From NCBI GenBank assembly GCA_022562855.1, contig JADFON010000132.1, positions 1 through 5,914 on the forward strand: a stretch of DNA of 5,914 nucleotides. The letters are read 5' to 3'. The notes beneath the pieces were generated by a model, which saw only the letters and a program-made list of their open reading frames with translations, did no database searches and was not told the DNA's origin. Shown piece by piece: positions 1-5,914 of this stretch; the stretch's first letter is position 1, and the number at the start of each line of letters is the position of its first letter. Position numbers and translations under genes: made by a program. The stretch comes from Candidatus Zhuqueibacterota bacterium (GTDB lineage Bacteria > SM23-31).

Positions 1-129
1 ATCAATTATAAAATCTAAACTTTTTGAGTTGCTTATAATATGATCTGCATTACTACTTTTTGTAATAGCAATAACATTTTCATGCCTTACAATCCAATTT
101 AATATTATTTGTTGTATAGTTTTATTGTT
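1..129 (-). pseudogene. Aldo/keto reductase, C-terminal fragment (cut by window edge and by a junction near 130)
   Basis: Read on the minus strand from about base 129 down to base 1, this stretch gives an uninterrupted frame of 43 residues. It contains NNKT, IILNWI, VIAITKSSN and SLDF in that order and spacing. This matches the C-terminal part of NADPH-dependent aldo/keto reductases: YNKTPAQ, then ALNWL, then the VIPIPKSSN signature whose Lys-Ser contacts the cofactor phosphate, then the LDFxLS helix. The enzyme is a cytosolic TIM barrel that reduces carbonyls. The N-terminal roughly 220 residues are missing: upstream on this strand (above base 130) the sequence becomes the antisense of the Fn3 frame. 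The last residues lie beyond the left edge. The segment is much more AT-rich than the rest of the window. I infer a gene broken by rearrangement, or a contig join. The family call is fairly secure despite the short length. Confidence 0.7.
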
Positions 130-1077
130 GTGGGTTTTAATGCCGATACGGCTCGGGCGTTTTCCGATGCTGTTTCTTTTACGTCCGATTCTCTGCCTGT
201 GCTTTATGATTTGACGGTTGTTTCTAATCTTCCGGGTGAGACGATTTTGTCGGTGATCGATTCTTCGGGTAGTAAGAATCTGCGGTTGGTGTTTTATGAT
301 TCTCTCGGGGTTCTTTCGAATGATACGGTTAGTTTTGACGGGGTGAATCCGGTTACGGTTTATGATACGGTGAATACGTCTAATTTTCCCGATTCTTTGG
401 TTGCTTTTATGGTTTTACTGCTTAATTCTCAGGGCGATTCGGTTGTGCTGGATTCGGTGCGTCAACAGTATCTGCAGGTTGCTTTTCCTCTTGCGGTTAT
501 TGCGAGCGATACTTCGGATTCTACTATTCAGTTTTATTTCGACGCTGCGGATATTAATCCCGACCGGGTTTTTTATCAGTTGTACGATAGTTCGCTGTCT
601 GTTTTTGTGAATATTGCGGGTGATACTTCGGGTACGGACAGCGTCTGGGCGATCAAGTCGTCGTGGGATACTTTGACGTTGAATGTTGGGGTGAATACGG
701 AGCATCGGTTGTTCTTGAAGGGGCGTAATTCCGATTCTGTGGCTACGGTTTTTTCGCTGTCGGATTCGTTGTGGTCGTGGGCGCAAATACCGGATATGGT
801 AAGTGCCTTTCCGCACAGCCGGGACTCCATACTGATAGTAATTGATCCAAAAGAAAACCCGTCGTATACATATTTCGCTATCGAGGATTCCGTTACAGGG
901 CTTTTTATCGACAATTCTTCAAATGTCTTGAGGTCTTCCGGTGTAACCGTTGATTCAACCTGGGCATGGGCGGCATACGCCGAATGGGGTGGGGCTGCCG
1001 GTTACTTCGTTGTCGTGTCTCCAAATACATCGTTTGTATTTAGAGCGTATGCTAAAGAGGGGATAAAACGGGATTAG
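109..1077 (+). CDS. Fibronectin type III-like repeat protein, N-terminally truncated fragment
   Basis: The frame (322 residues from a TTG) looks like the end of a larger repeat protein. Residues 8-28 (VGFNADTARAFSD) resemble the last strands of an Fn3 repeat. Three fuller repeats follow, at about 29-126, 127-226 and 227-322, each ending in an N-x-D-S or PNTSFVFRAYA-type strand. The sequence is rich in Asp-Ser pairs and beta-forming residues, has no cysteine, and shows no signal peptide or membrane segment. Such repeats usually serve as spacers in secreted, surface or tail proteins, but no binding or catalytic part is visible here. The TTG start has no ribosome binding site and follows a stop at 100-102, so it is probably not a real start; recognisable homology begins near base 133. 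Codon use changes sharply at about base 785 (residue 226). The end, AYAKEGIKRD, stops just where another repeat would normally follow. Best read as a remnant or a chimeric gene. A role in the phage virion is possible but unsupported. Confidence 0.6.
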   Translation: MLYSFIVVGFNADTARAFSDAVSFTSDSLPVLYDLTVVSNLPGETILSVIDSSGSKNLRLVFYDSLGVLSNDTVSFDGVNPVTVYDTVNTSNFPDSLVAFMVLLLNSQGDSVVLDSVRQQYLQVAFPLAVIASDTSDSTIQFYFDAADINPDRVFYQLYDSSLSVFVNIAGDTSGTDSVWAIKSSWDTLTLNVGVNTEHRLFLKGRNSDSVATVFSLSDSLWSWAQIPDMVSAFPHSRDSILIVIDPKENPSYTYFAIEDSVTGLFIDNSSNVLRSSGVTVDSTWAWAAYAEWGGAAGYFVVVSPNTSFVFRAYAKEGIKRD

Positions 1078-1155
1078 AATTATTTTAAATAAAAGCTTCT
1101 TATCATTTAGGTTTTAATGAAATATTCTGTGACAAATCAACTAATCATTTGTTAA

Positions 1156-1173
1156 GTATAATAAATATTATAC
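1156..1173. promoter_or_regulatory. Perfect 8-bp inverted repeat with embedded TATAAT, upstream of the phage module
   Basis: GTATAATA-aa-TATTATAC is a perfect dyad of 8-bp arms with a 2-bp spacer, 20 bases before the ATG at 1194. It contains an exact -10 consensus, TATAAT (1157-1162). The best -35-like hexamer, GTGACA (1129-1134), lies 22 bases away, which is too far. The properly spaced positions (1134-1139) are poor. A repressor site overlapping a -10 box would fit a module that begins here. The 116-base gap is AT-rich, however, so a short AT dyad may arise by chance. Confidence 0.35.
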
Positions 1174-1193
1174 AAATTTAATGGAGCCCGATT

Positions 1194-2201
1194 ATGGGAA
1201 TGCGAGGTCCTGGAAAAAGCGCTGCGGCAAAAACCCCGGTTGATTCAATTATAGTTTCGATTCCGGTTGAGTTGCGCGTCAAGAAATGGTTTACCGACAT
1301 TGAAACAGTCAAAAAGATGTACACCGCTGCATCGAGATCGCTTAGCATTCAAAATGAAGAGGAAATCCTTGTTGGATTCTTCCAAAGCGATCTTGAATTC
1401 GGCAACATTATTGAAAATTCTGAACGAATTAAAGTCAGGGAACGCGCACTCGGACCTGATTTAATAACCATAACCGATGGGAATTTTCAATCGTTAAGCA
1501 ACGATGATATAATAAAAGGAACCGTTGTCGTAACAAATACAAACGAAAACCTGGAATGGGTCGAGGGCGTAGATTATGAAATTGAATATTCCACGGGAAA
1601 GATACGCCACCTCTTTACTTCCGGATCCCCGGGTACTGCCAAGGGAGCGGGCGCCGGTTCAGGATCGTCGATAAACACCGCATCCTTTGAGTTAACCGTT
1701 CAAAAAAGTGTAACCGTTCATTATCAATATTATTCTACAAAAACCAAGGATTTTGATTACTCGATAAATTATGTCCGGGGAAGCCTGTCCCGTAAGGAAG
1801 GAGGAACACTTGTTTCCGGTACTAAAGTTAACATCGATTATCGTGTCCAGGAGTTGATTCAGGATGAAGTAATCGCCTTGTCGATTGATCAGGCTCATGT
1901 CTGGATCCTCGACCGGATAGGCGATGAATTGGAAACTTCATCGGATGACAGATTAAAATACGGTGAAGCCTATTTTTCACTTTTTTTGATTTCTAAAATG
2001 AGCGCAGCAAACCTCATTTACGAAAAAAGAAACGATGATGTTGAAGAAGCCGCAAAAGAGCTGAGCTTGATATCGGAGGATTACCGGCGTTTGGCGTTGA
2101 GTTTCTTACAAAAACATATAAAGTTCCCTGTCGGCAGACGGACAGGGAAAGTATCCAAAAATAAATCCTGGTCTCTTGTCACAAGAAACCCCTTTATATA
2201 A
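1194..2201 (+). CDS. Putative phage virion/connector protein, beta modules plus helical C-terminal domain
   Basis: I do not recognise a named family. The 335-residue product opens with a basic MGMRGPGK stretch, reminiscent of the first residues of some terminase small subunits. A mixed helical part follows to about residue 95. Residues 107-180 form a beta module with EGVDYEIEYSTGKI and VTVHYQYY; this GxDYxxxYxxGxI pattern occurs in tailed-phage structural proteins. A flexible Gly/Ser linker (144-159) lies inside it. A second strand pair, ending GTKVNIDYRV, covers 190-218. Residues 222-312 are strongly helical and charged, like the helical bundle of head-tail connector proteins. There is no signal peptide or membrane segment. 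The ATG has GGAG seven bases upstream. The gene lies 18 bases before terS, so it is probably co-transcribed with the packaging genes. Adaptor or connector is my inference; a decoration protein or packaging accessory protein is also possible. Confidence 0.65.
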   Translation: MGMRGPGKSAAAKTPVDSIIVSIPVELRVKKWFTDIETVKKMYTAASRSLSIQNEEEILVGFFQSDLEFGNIIENSERIKVRERALGPDLITITDGNFQSLSNDDIIKGTVVVTNTNENLEWVEGVDYEIEYSTGKIRHLFTSGSPGTAKGAGAGSGSSINTASFELTVQKSVTVHYQYYSTKTKDFDYSINYVRGSLSRKEGGTLVSGTKVNIDYRVQELIQDEVIALSIDQAHVWILDRIGDELETSSDDRLKYGEAYFSLFLISKMSAANLIYEKRNDDVEEAAKELSLISEDYRRLALSFLQKHIKFPVGRRTGKVSKNKSWSLVTRNPFI

Positions 2202-2219
2202 GAGGATTACCAATTCAGC

Positions 2220-2630
2220 ATGAAAAAATCGAACGATAAAAACAAAAATTTTACAGAAAAATTATCTTCAAATCAAAAACTATTCATCGAGTATCTTCTC
2301 GACACGGAATGCGAAGAATCACCGGACGATTTTGCGATTAGAATCGGCGTACCGAAATCAACGCTCCTGGAATGGAAATCAAATCCCGCAATCGTCCAAT
2401 CGGTTTATCAGCTTTGTGTTACAAGGAATGGAACGGAAATTCCAAAGGTGCTGAAAATGCTTCGGGAAAAAGCGCTTGAAGACAGGGATATTTCCGCCTG
2501 CAAACTTTTTTTCCAGCAGATCGAACGAATATCGGATATACCGGAAGCCGGTTTATCGGTCGATGAGGCGCTTCGGATTGTCAACAAAATAATGGAAGAC
2601 TCTGAAAACTCAAATTCTTCAAATGTGTAA
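2220..2630 (+). CDS. terS: Phage terminase small subunit (phBC6A51-like helix-turn-helix)
   Basis: The 136-residue product fits a terminase small subunit, the part of the packaging motor that recognises phage DNA and hands it to the large subunit. Residues 15-28 (LSSNQKLFIEYLL) are the typical opening helix. Residues 35-53 form a helix-turn-helix: DDFAIRIGVPKSTLLEWK, with the IGVPKSTLxxW core of the phBC6A51-type domain. A second helical region at 76-101, with LREKALEDRDISACKLFFQ, matches the 'A..GD..A.KL.L' oligomerisation segment of this family. The tail is acidic and Ser/Asn-rich. The length is normal for the family. GAGGA lies 13 bases before the ATG, a slightly long spacing. The gene is 18 bases downstream of the preceding gene and 13 bases upstream of the large subunit, which is the expected operon order. 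The DNA site it binds cannot be identified here. Confidence 0.85.
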   Translation: MKKSNDKNKNFTEKLSSNQKLFIEYLLDTECEESPDDFAIRIGVPKSTLLEWKSNPAIVQSVYQLCVTRNGTEIPKVLKMLREKALEDRDISACKLFFQQIERISDIPEAGLSVDEALRIVNKIMEDSENSNSSNV

Positions 2631-2643
2631 ACCGTATTGAATT

Positions 2644-4026
2644 ATGCTTACATCCAACGACTTATATCATATATCGAAGTGTAGATTCGACCCGTGGTAT
2701 TTCTTTACCCGGTACGTACGTACGCTGGAAAGGGAATTCGGTGAACGGGCATATCCCGATTACCCATATCTCAAAAATTTGATCAGGCATATCCAAACTG
2801 ACCGAAGGCTCGTCATTCTGAAATCCCGTCAAATGCTCGTTACCTGGACTGCCGTTGCATTTGCATTATGGGAAGCGATATTCAGGGGAAATACCGATAT
2901 ACTATTTATTTCGAAAAGAGAGGACGATGCGAAAGAGGCTATCAGGAGAATAAAATTCATATATGACCGTCTGCCTGAATTTTTAAAACCCCGTACCGGG
3001 GAAAACACAAAGTACGTGCTTGAATTTCCTGCACGTCAATCCCGCCTGATGGCGCTGCCGACACATCCGAATATCGGAAGGACGTATTCGCCAACCCGTA
3101 TTATCTGGGATGAAATGGCAAGCACGCCATTTGACGATGATATCTTTGCATCACTTCAGCCAAGTCTTGACGGCGGTGGATATTTCGTCGGTATTTCTAC
3201 GAGCCAGGGTCCTATGACAAAGCATGCCGAACTGTATACCAATGCCGATTCATTAGGATTCAACCGTCTTTCCCTTCATTACAGTAAGCACCCTCATAAA
3301 AACGAAGAATGGTGCAAACTTGCCCGGCGGGGAATGAGCGATGAGCGGTGGCAGATGGAGCAGGAAATGTCACTCAGTTTTGGCGGCAACCGCGTATATG
3401 GAGCATTTCAAAAACAGACGCATGTGACCGGAGTGCCGCTTCCCTGCCTGAAATATTCATTATACCGCTCTATCGATTTCGGATTTCATACGCCGGTGGT
3501 ATTGTGGTCACAGGTTAATAATGGCTCGATAACGGTTTTCAGGGAGTGGGTAGGCGAGGATGCGACGATATCCGATATGGTCCGGGCTATCATTGAAATC
3601 GACAGAGATCTCGGTTTAACGGAAAATGAATTTACCTACACCTATTGCGATCCTGCCGGGGCATCGCGAACCGACCTTGGCATTTCCTCTTTAGAGCGTC
3701 TAAAAGCTGAGTATTTCGAATCGACTTTTTTCGAACTCAAGATACGGTTTCGTCACAGCACCGTTTTAGCAGGTGTCGACTTAATCAGGGAAAAGCTCAG
3801 GAATGCGGCAGGCGAAATCAATCTGAAAGTGAGTTCCGGCTGTCCGAGAACAATACTGGATTTTGGCAGATACGTAAAAATGAAGGACAGTGAAGATCCC
3901 AAAAAAGACGGGCTTGCAGAACATACTATGGATGCTCTCAGGTATCTCGTTATTAACCTGATGCAAAAACCGAAACCCGCCGGCTCAAGTATTCTGCAGC
4001 CGCGTATTTCGGGCGTATTCAAGTAG
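2644..4026 (+). CDS. terL: Phage terminase large subunit (packaging ATPase and nuclease)
   Basis: This 460-residue protein has both terminase domains intact. In the N-terminal ATPase, the variant Walker A is KSRQMLVTW (60-68). The Walker B is RIIWDE (152-157), with Asp156 and catalytic Glu157. The coupling motif is GISTSQGP (183-190). The C-terminal RNase H-like nuclease shows its three acidic positions: SIDFG (Asp278), YCDPAGA (Asp336) and EHTMDALRY (Asp430). The enzyme cuts concatemeric phage DNA and pumps it through the portal into the prohead using ATP. Leu65 stands where many relatives have Gly, which seems tolerated in some branches. The length is typical for the shorter Terminase_6-type proteins. 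The start is the first ATG after an in-frame TGA at 2638-2640. No clear ribosome binding site precedes it, so translation may be coupled to the small subunit gene 13 bases upstream. Confidence 0.95.
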   Translation: MLTSNDLYHISKCRFDPWYFFTRYVRTLEREFGERAYPDYPYLKNLIRHIQTDRRLVILKSRQMLVTWTAVAFALWEAIFRGNTDILFISKREDDAKEAIRRIKFIYDRLPEFLKPRTGENTKYVLEFPARQSRLMALPTHPNIGRTYSPTRIIWDEMASTPFDDDIFASLQPSLDGGGYFVGISTSQGPMTKHAELYTNADSLGFNRLSLHYSKHPHKNEEWCKLARRGMSDERWQMEQEMSLSFGGNRVYGAFQKQTHVTGVPLPCLKYSLYRSIDFGFHTPVVLWSQVNNGSITVFREWVGEDATISDMVRAIIEIDRDLGLTENEFTYTYCDPAGASRTDLGISSLERLKAEYFESTFFELKIRFRHSTVLAGVDLIREKLRNAAGEINLKVSSGCPRTILDFGRYVKMKDSEDPKKDGLAEHTMDALRYLVINLMQKPKPAGSSILQPRISGVFK

Positions 4027-4055
4027 CATTGTGTCTAAAAACAATAATAATTTTT

Positions 4056-4065
4056 GGTAATTACC
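4056..4065. repeat. 10-bp palindrome GGTAATTACC in the terL-portal gap
   Basis: A perfect palindrome lies 30 bases after the terL stop and just before the heptamer array. It is too short and AT-centred for a terminator and has no following T-run. It may be a binding site or chance. Confidence 0.3.
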
Positions 4066-4074
4066 GCCGAACTT

Positions 4075-4116
4075 ATTCGTAACTCGTAATTCGTAATTCG
4101 TAATTCGTAATTCGAA
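4075..4116. repeat. Heptanucleotide tandem repeat (ATTCGTA), six units
   Basis: Six head-to-tail 7-bp units fill 42 bases: ATTCGTA, ACTCGTA, three exact ATTCGTA, then ATTCGAA. The 7-base period is not a multiple of three, so any frame through it reads a 7-residue cycle. On the minus strand this gives NYELRIT-like repeats, a known false-gene pattern in repeat-rich bacterial genomes. The array sits between the terL stop and the portal start and contains no ribosome binding site. It resembles the short tandem repeats scattered through intergenic DNA of some bacteria. Slippage can change its copy number and so the spacing between the two genes. Confidence 0.9.
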
Positions 4117-4152
4117 AATTGTAACTCCTTACCATCAACCGGGGCAACAAAT

Positions 4153-5415
4153 ATGGATTTATTATCACATTTCAGAAAAAGAAAAGGTCTTCCCGAAAAA
4201 ATTGAAGCGCTGTCAAATCGTGGAATGAACCGCTCGCGGTCTTCATATTTAGATGGATGCAACTGGCATCGGTATGAGTCAAGGCATCAACTGTACAGGT
4301 ATCTTCGGGACAGGATTCCGATCATTTCTTCCGCGATATGGAACTGGGTGAGACTCTGTAATACGCCTGGCTCATACCTGCTTGTCGGAAACGATAAACA
4401 CCTGAAAGAAGCAGAACATGTTCTTGATGATTTGCTGACCAGGATGGGTACGGTTGTAGGATCCAAGCGGACAGGTCTGGGAAGGCTTCTCGAATTATTT
4501 TTTCAGGAAGTTTTTACCAACGGCAGTTTTTGCGGAAAATTGGTTCCCCTTCCTTCCGGTACAGGGATCGATTTCTTTGAAGATATGGATTCGTCCAGAA
4601 TCAAATGGGATAAAAAAGGGAAATGGATCCCCTACCTTGAAATGGATGACAGAAAAATCTATCTCGATAATGAAACCTTTTTTCACTATGGACTTGGGTC
4701 TGATTGCTTAAATCCAGGTGGAGTTAGTTTTCTCGCTTCAATAGAATTCGTTACGGAAATCGATCAACGTATGGTTGAAGATATGGCGCGCAGCGGACAT
4801 AACGCCGGAAATCCTCATCTGCATATAAAAATCATTCCACCGGAACGGTTTGACAACGAAAACGACGAAAAATACATAAAAAGAGCCGAAAAATACTTTG
4901 ACAATACTGTTGACATGTTTAAGGAAATCGACCCCGATGACAATTTATTTACCTGGTCGAATATTGAAATCACCATAGCAGGTGGCGGCACGGCAATGCC
5001 GTTTACCTGGCGAGTCAACCGGGAACAGATAATAGAGGACGTTATCACAGGTATGAAACTGTTTCCGTGGGTCGTTGGAAGAAGTCACGGTACCACGAAA
5101 AACTGGGTACAGGCACAGTACAACCTGCTTATGCAGGTTGTCGACTCCATCCAGGAAGAAGGAAAAGCCCTGGCGGAATGGATTCTTAACACCGAATTGA
5201 AACTGAAGGGAATCCCCGTCACCGCCCGGTACATCTTTAGCCCAAACCAGGACCCGTACCAGCTTGACCGTGAGAAAGCAGCAGCTCTCAGATTTGAAAT
5301 CGTTAATAAAAAAGTGCAAAACGGTTATATATCCAAAAATGAGGGAGCAAAGGAACTTGGATATAAAGAGGCATTCAACCAAGAATCATCAATAAAGTTA
5401 GTAACAAATAAATGA
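4153..5415 (+). CDS. Phage portal protein
   Basis: This 420-residue protein has the layout of a tailed-phage portal. The portal is a twelve-subunit ring at one capsid vertex, through which the terminase pumps DNA and to which the tail connects. Residues 45-78 give the early helical segment with YLRDRIPIISSAIWNWV (repeated in many portals as 'D.vv..ai..ra'). Residues 108-180 form the beta-rich wing, with GRLLELFFQEVFTNGSF and ETFFHYGLGS. Residues 190-215 are the following helix. The stem/clip and crown region includes GMKLFPWVVGRSHGTTKNWVQAQYNLL (300-326) and a long helix at 320-347. The tail, with NQDPYQLDREKAAALRFEIV and NGYISKNEGAKELGY (389-404), is the usual portal ending. No membrane segment is seen. 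The ATG is the only start after an in-frame TAA at 4108-4110; a weak GGGG lies eight bases upstream. The position right after terL supports the call. Confidence 0.85.
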   Translation: MDLLSHFRKRKGLPEKIEALSNRGMNRSRSSYLDGCNWHRYESRHQLYRYLRDRIPIISSAIWNWVRLCNTPGSYLLVGNDKHLKEAEHVLDDLLTRMGTVVGSKRTGLGRLLELFFQEVFTNGSFCGKLVPLPSGTGIDFFEDMDSSRIKWDKKGKWIPYLEMDDRKIYLDNETFFHYGLGSDCLNPGGVSFLASIEFVTEIDQRMVEDMARSGHNAGNPHLHIKIIPPERFDNENDEKYIKRAEKYFDNTVDMFKEIDPDDNLFTWSNIEITIAGGGTAMPFTWRVNREQIIEDVITGMKLFPWVVGRSHGTTKNWVQAQYNLLMQVVDSIQEEGKALAEWILNTELKLKGIPVTARYIFSPNQDPYQLDREKAAALRFEIVNKKVQNGYISKNEGAKELGYKEAFNQESSIKLVTNK

Positions 5416-5465
5416 TAATATAATTAACTGTACTTTGGAAAATTTTAGGATTTAAGATGTTAATA

Positions 5466-5491
5466 GCACCTCCAAATGAGTTTGGGGGTGC
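5466..5491. repeat. Strong hairpin after portal (11-bp stem, TGAG loop)
   Basis: GCACCTCCAAA - TGAG - TTTGGGGGTGC folds into an 11-bp stem with a single T-G (U-G) mismatch. It lies 50 bases after the portal stop. No T-run follows (the next bases are CACACATG), so a standard intrinsic terminator is unlikely. It could protect the upstream mRNA's 3' end or be part of a dispersed repeat together with the next hairpin. Confidence 0.7.
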
Positions 5492-5514
5492 CACACATGT
5501 TCAATCTGTCATTG

Positions 5515-5543
5515 TCCCGTTAGGGATGGCAATCTTCCCGTTA
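5515..5543. repeat. Small TCCC-GTTA-GGGA hairpin with repeated CCCGTTA
   Basis: TCCC (5515-5518), loop GTTA, GGGA (5523-5526) form a short stem, extendable by G-U pairs. The heptamer CCCGTTA occurs here and again at 5537-5543. Together with the hairpin 24 bases upstream this looks like one structured intergenic repeat unit of roughly 80 bases. Its family is not identified. Confidence 0.45.
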
Positions 5544-5636
5544 ATATCTAAAAAAAACTTGAATTTACCTTAATACAATTTTTACTAAAGTAACCCGTTG
5601 TGCTAGTTAGAACGAATACATTCAACGCGACACAAG

Positions 5637-5650
5637 TTGTTTATAAACAA
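5637..5650. repeat. 14-bp palindrome TTGTTTATAAACAA inside the MITE-like element
   Basis: A perfect 14-bp palindrome lies in the left half of the element, extendable by AG/CT if one extra A is skipped. It may be a protein-binding or structural part of the element. Confidence 0.45.
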
Positions 5651-5669
5651 ACTGTTAGCATTGAAAGCA

Positions 5670-5741
5670 ATGTCATTTCGAGCGTAGCCGAGAAATCTTT
5701 ACGCCGAGATTTCTTCCCATAATGCGGGATCGAAATGACAT
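5670..5741. repeat. Nested palindromic repeat (GTCATTTCGA type) in the centre of the MITE-like element
   Basis: Outer arms ATGTCATTTCGA (5670-5681) and TCGAAATGACAT (5730-5741) are perfect 12-bp inverted repeats. Inner arms AGAAATCT (5691-5698) and AGATTTCT (5707-5714) are perfect 8-bp inverted repeats. As RNA or single-stranded DNA it would fold into a two-tier hairpin. Similar GTCATTTCGAGC...AGAAATCT palindromes are scattered in many copies through various bacterial genomes (recalled, not searched). It may be a passenger inside the element or the element's core. Confidence 0.75.
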
Positions 5742-5840
5742 GAAAGTTTAGTGTAAACCTAATAAAAATGCTCAATATGAATCAATTCTAATAGCACAAC
5801 GGGTTAAAGTACTTTAATTTAAATAAACAGGAGAATAAAA

Positions 5841-5914
5841 TTGGACGAAAATTCGAAAAAAGACAAAGAAATCGAAGCAAGCGGCTCGAAATTTTGCCGC
5901 TGTTCGATCAACCG
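5841..5914 (+). CDS. Next gene of the phage module, N-terminal 24 codons only
   Basis: A TTG at 5841 opens a frame that stays open to the right edge: MDENSKKDKEIEAS, then GSKFCRCSIN. AGGAG (5829-5833) lies seven bases upstream, an ideal ribosome binding site, and this decides the start because no ATG or GTG is in position. The visible part is a charged, Lys/Glu-rich stretch with two close cysteines. In tailed phages the gene after portal is often a head maturation protease, a scaffold or a minor head protein, but 24 residues cannot separate these. The 425-base gap from portal, filled by repeats, means it may now be less tightly coupled to the upstream genes. Confidence 0.65.
   Translation, partial: MDENSKKDKEIEASGSKFCRCSIN

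Follow-up and report, generated by a model that had tools for sequence, protein, structure and literature searches.

A codon-use switch inside a phage-like Fn3 gene marks a join between DNA of different sources, probably in a chimeric contig

Codon use changes abruptly in the middle of an open reading frame that lies near one end of a phage-like contig, and the question is whether this switch records recombination between two phage genes or a join made during library preparation or assembly. The window, that is the whole stretch of DNA analysed here (5914 bp), is the complete contig G000:C138 of one MAG (G000; 2.51 Mb, 491 contigs, 79.6% complete). It was compared with its nearest relatives, the few MAGs of the candidate phylum that contains bacterium SM23_31 (six genomes at both the class and the phylum level), and with two viral contigs of IMG/VR, L026 and L027. 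The protein encoded by the switching frame (109-1077), which carries predicted fibronectin type III-like (Fn3-like) repeats, is termed W, and its homologue in genome G001 is termed L005. The features of the window are as follows.

1 to 120, minus strand: C-terminal fragment of an aldo/keto reductase gene, cut mid-gene (phmmer against PDB: 6cia, E 3.5e-7; 4wgh, E 4e-7)
115 to 123: left junction, TATAGTTTT, readable both in the reductase (..KT, minus strand) and in the Fn3 protein (YSF, plus strand), placed by the limits of homology on both sides
118 to 783, plus strand: T/G-rich piece with the end of one Fn3-like unit and predicted Fn3 domains 1 (~196-483) and 2 (~484-780), closest to L026 and L027
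772 to 790, plus strand: right junction, between WSWAQ and IPDM, placed by the codon change point (784), the identity breakpoint (772-787) and the junction bases
784 to 1077, plus strand: predicted C-terminal Fn3 domain (domain 3), with host-like codons, 68% identical to L005 of G001
1194 to 2201, plus strand: conserved 335-aa protein, the next gene in all homologous loci, with weak PHROG matches
2220 to 2630, plus strand: terminase small subunit (phrog_24579, E 2.2e-9)
2644 to 4026, plus strand: terminase large subunit (phrog_5989, E 3e-23)
4153 to 5415, plus strand: portal protein (phrog_3753, E 2.6e-31)

The intergenic region 5416-5841 consists of dispersed repeats with 41 matches in the own genome, itself included, at up to 88% identity; among them is a MITE-like unit with 36-nt imperfect inverted ends at 5570-5605 and 5792-5827. 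Tandem copies of a unit of about 14 bases, of the ATTCGTAATTCGTA type, were also observed at 4075-4123, just 5' of the portal gene.

In the frame 109-1077, the third codon positions from 133 to 783 are composed of A.01, C.09, G.39 and T.51, and those from 784 to 1074 of A.25, C.22, G.23 and T.31. At third positions of the downstream genes, A ranges over.24-.34, C over.19-.25, G over.18-.24 and T over.24-.28, in agreement with the statement of an earlier note, made from the sequence alone, that codon use after the switch resembles that of the phage genes downstream. The host mean, sampled from 68 unmasked contigs (426 kb) of the MAG with 12 masked contigs left out, is A.27, C.22, G.22 and T.29. 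The best single change point was found at 784, with a log-likelihood gain of 32.6, whereas 1000 codon shuffles reached 11.2 at most; this confirmed the sharp change inside one frame that the note had described. The T/G-rich coding begins at about 115-120 and not at 133, as had been read, and since the homologues continue N-terminally, the gene does not truly start with the TTG at 109. The T/G-rich piece has a T+G content at third positions of.90, whereas the maximum in any 217-codon stretch of the host is.63 (1400 segments from 305 ORFs, 426 kb), and in the same scan its A content of.01 compares with a host minimum of.11. A comparable break within an ORF was sought in 257 sampled host ORFs and none was found, the largest value being 20.4 versus 32.3 in the window gene. 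The T/G-rich stretch is foreign to the host, and the codon switch marks a join between DNA of different sources. A local mutational or selective bias that arose without any recombination, for instance through strand-asymmetric mutation or a regulatory need for T and G, would be in line with the continuous frame and with a protein collinear with its homologues; it is opposed by the abruptness of the break and by the fact that no comparable stretch occurs in the 1400 sampled host segments.

The protein coded by 115-1074 was modelled with AlphaFold2 (mean pLDDT 63). The model matches tandem fibronectin type III structures (best Foldseek match 6xay_C, E 7.5e-9; VIA Z about 10) and predicts tandem beta-sandwich Fn3-like repeats, which supports the Fn3-like repeats named in the earlier note. 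The Pfam fn3 threshold was missed by the window protein, and a weak fn3 match was obtained for L027 (E 0.009). According to the aligned structure ranges, domain 1 extends over ~196-483 and domain 2 over ~484-780, and domain 3 begins at ~781. In this predicted fold the right junction falls on the boundary of domains 2 and 3, so that the placement of the switch at a linker between repeats held as well. At this site W reads TGG TCG TGG GCG CAA ATA CCG GAT, L005 reads TGG AGC TGG TCG CAA ATA CCG GAT and L026 reads TGG ACA TGG GCG CAA ACT. CGCAA is common to all three, CGCAAATACCGGAT is common to W and L005, and TGGGCGCAAA to W and L026. Judging from gene position and predicted fold, the family probably comprises secreted or virion-associated Fn3 repeat proteins. 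Matches to Disaggr_repeat and CBM96 were obtained for the N-terminal part of the G002 homologue, and a role in binding surfaces or carbohydrates would be consistent with them.

Four further genomes of the phylum carry one copy each of this gene family, and the same region is present in the two IMG/VR viral contigs. In all homologous loci the order is Fn3 gene, 335-aa gene, terminase small subunit, terminase large subunit and portal where the contig reaches that far. The homologous proteins are collinear across the junction position with Fn3-like repeats on both sides, and since they have the same domain order, no new architecture arose; the suggestion that such a switch would be a way to build new surface or fibre proteins was therefore not borne out. 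Instead, the sequence of one homologue gives way to that of another, with no unrelated domain added. No codon switch was detected in the homologues, neither in the four phylum members (by segment) nor in the viral one (in 60-codon blocks), and the objection that the composition change might be a property of the whole family thus fails. Within the family, pairwise identity is 34-68% in the conserved C-terminal domain and 18-36% in the variable upstream repeats, the latter for pairs without W. In addition, the end segment YQFSVFGFNADSLIAFSDGV of a second large ORF of the L027 contig (L027:776-2557) resembles by eye the start of the T/G-rich piece, YSFIVVGFNADTARAFSDAV, and that phage may have several genes with Fn3 repeats.

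Identity and phylogeny change at the same place as composition. Before 784, W is 49% identical to L026 and 25-31% identical to the phylum members, and past this position the values are 39% for L026 and 68% for L005; of the fifteen pairs, only W and L026 are more alike in the first part than in the second. The best identity breakpoint lies at 772-787, and its score was reached in 0 of 5000 permutations. In LG+G4 trees of the first part, the grouping of W with L005 was rejected in favour of W with L026 (AU p.018), and in those of the second part W with L026 was rejected in favour of W with L005 (AU p.033), the alignment comprising only six taxa and each AU test being modest individually. Such conflicting phylogenies of two parts are what a mosaic gene displays. 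The four downstream genes all side in ancestry with the second part: compared with the window contig they are 61-76% identical in G001, 59-67% in G002 and 32-54% in G003 and G004, and 33-40% or without a hit in the viral contig. The change of source is put at one and the same place by composition, identity and trees, and the proposal that the two halves come from different sources is upheld by codon composition, tree conflict and identity breakpoint together. The tree conflict at the switch and the homologues free of it rule out in practice a within-gene bias without recombination, which we regard as extremely improbable. A variable region of a diversity-generating retroelement, weighed from general knowledge, was also rejected, because neither the length of 670 bases nor the identity to L026, 49% along the full piece, fits it.

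The left end of the window revealed a second break, at about 115-123. Whereas the break at 784 stood as described in the earlier note, this one had been missed, and an inverted fragment of an unrelated AT-rich gene lies upstream of it. The minus-strand translation of 1-120, TIQQIILNWIVRHENVIAITKSSNADHIISNSKSLDFIID, corresponds to the C-terminal part of an aldo/keto reductase; the Pfam Aldo_ket_red match to the fragment (E 0.021) is below the Pfam cut-off. The fragment has a GC content of.23 over 1-114, which is this low in 0.6% of host 114-mers, and 36 of its 40 third positions are A or T. No comparable reductase homologue was found in the own genome or in the phylum genomes, and the search for its source gave only matches of about 40-55% in varied bacteria and archaea. 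On the basis of these comparisons, the fragment is foreign to this genome. Homology of the Fn3 protein to L026 starts at Y115, and homology of the reductase reaches the T at 118-120 (PDB match), so that two genes, both cut mid-gene and in opposite orientation, meet over at most 9 shared bases (TATAGTTTT) about 120 bases from the contig end. The Fn3 frame contains a stop codon at 100-102, and the gene has neither start codon nor N-terminus, whereas the homologues have 529-721 residues (some cut by contig ends). It is not the intact, expressible gene expected of a mosaic fibre gene, being headless, with this stop in its frame, and joined to a reductase fragment.

The contig pieces come from three separate sources, with GC contents of.23 (reductase),.46 (T/G-rich piece) and.42 (remainder); the GC of bases 784-5914 (.423) equals the mean of the sampled host contigs (.423). 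Since three compositions and ancestries lie within 800 bases of a contig end, and one join is certainly between unrelated genes, a chimeric contig, from assembly or library, is the simplest reading, and we give it a probability of roughly 0.6. The headless state of the Fn3 gene and its fusion to an inverted foreign reductase piece make such a contig likelier than recombination, and we infer that the joining was artificial and did not take place in a living cell. According to this model, ~784-5914 would truly belong to a phage or prophage of this MAG, ~118-783 would derive from a homologous Fn3 gene carried by another phage, distantly related and with a strong T/G codon bias, and 1-120 would have been contributed by a cellular aldo/keto reductase gene that is unrelated, AT-rich and encoded on the opposite strand. 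The pieces could have been connected in the assembly graph, across the conserved W-S-W-A-Q linker, or in the library, through ligation or template switching; the observed gene would then be no functional fibre gene, as its start and N-terminus are missing.

Metagenome assembly is known to produce chimeric contigs where related genomes share k-mers (PMC7299287), and in amplified DNA the two sides of a chimeric junction typically have 2-21 bases in common (PMC1855051). The window resembles such assembly and amplification chimeras (PMC7299287, PMC1855051) in that the source changes abruptly, close to a contig end and over short stretches of sequence in common, between pieces of different composition and ancestry, and in the cutting of unrelated genes, reductase and Fn3, in their middle. 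It differs from them (PMC7299287, PMC1855051) in that the right junction is in frame and homologous and so needs a homology-guided join. What counts against a chimera is that the right junction keeps the frame, joins homologous positions and coincides with a domain boundary, the outcome that homologous recombination under selection would have, although a homology-guided join in the assembly graph would also produce an in-frame homologous junction. Two further observations count against it. The right join shares 5-14 bases with the two nearest known relatives, which need not be the donors, and this identity is shorter than the usual assembly k-mer (the left join shares at most 9). Moreover, no contig with the genome's own N-terminal part was found in the MAG when the L005 protein was used as query, and the donor of the T/G-rich piece was not found in the own genome, phage records, viral contigs or 386 genomes, the search of the latter giving only weak Fn3 matches outside the phylum. 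The two host genes, each matching one half, for which the earlier note proposed a search, were likewise not found in the own genome.

The same right junction can be read, tentatively, as a real recombination event in which a phage or prophage of this bacterium recently swapped the upstream repeats of its Fn3 gene with those of a distant phage of a different host, at the linker before domain 3, within a lineage otherwise inherited with its hosts; a later rearrangement would have truncated the prophage and brought it beside a foreign reductase gene. The in-frame position of the junction at a homologous site between domains 2 and 3 speaks for such a swap, as does the combination of a conserved C-terminal domain with variable upstream repeats, which is expected if upstream modules are exchanged. 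It also fits that host-recognition genes of phages are known to be mosaic. The swap would, however, require two events, independent of each other and no more than 700 bases apart, and the second would have destroyed the gene; the reductase piece is foreign to genome and phylum alike. As the T/G bias is unameliorated, only a recent exchange would be compatible with it, and the search for a donor was nonetheless negative. One version of this reading, whose probability is included in that of the swap and which we consider unlikely, takes the right junction as real recombination and the left, reductase junction as a contig-end artefact. The two junctions do differ in kind, as homologous sequences are joined in frame on the right and non-homologous ones, sharing at most 9 bases, on the left, but a left artefact would mean that foreign sequence already sits at this contig end, which makes the right join suspect as well.

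Comparison with known systems bears on the swap as well. Like mosaic tail-fibre and receptor-binding genes of tailed phages, the window gene has homologous relatives, a conserved C-terminal domain, variable upstream repeats and a breakpoint on a domain boundary. Unlike them, it is a single instance with no start or N-terminus and no donor found, and its fibre role is only putative. Similar to the tail proteins of T5 and DT57C with Fn3 domains (8hqz, 7zn4), it combines predicted tandem Fn3 folds with a place in a phage structural cluster. It differs from them in that no sequence similarity was seen, in that it adjoins terminase and portal genes, and in the Disaggr_repeat and CBM96 matches of its G002 homologue.

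The phage-like cluster (window 784-5415; L115-L118; L027) occurs once in five of the six genomes of the candidate phylum, and in G002 it additionally contains a structural protein and a major head protein ahead of the Fn3 gene. Its identities largely track host kinship, with 59-76% within the same family, 32-54% in other families and 33-40% or no hit for the viral contigs. This order of identities suggests vertical inheritance of the cluster, as a domesticated or GTA-like element or as a co-diverging temperate phage. In G004, the protein encoded after the portal gene (L118:6765-8957) has an ATP-dependent DNA ligase domain match (PF01068, E 8e-16, residues 341-515), and about 290 of its residues align with the G001 and G002 proteins at that position, both of which match phrog_16951; a fusion or another contig problem is possible there.

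If the join is artefactual, the first ~783 bases of the window are unfit for inferring phage or host biology, and the contig of the MAG ought to be trimmed. A right join that proved real would represent a clean exchange of an Fn3 module between distant phages at a domain boundary, a kind of event that is already known.
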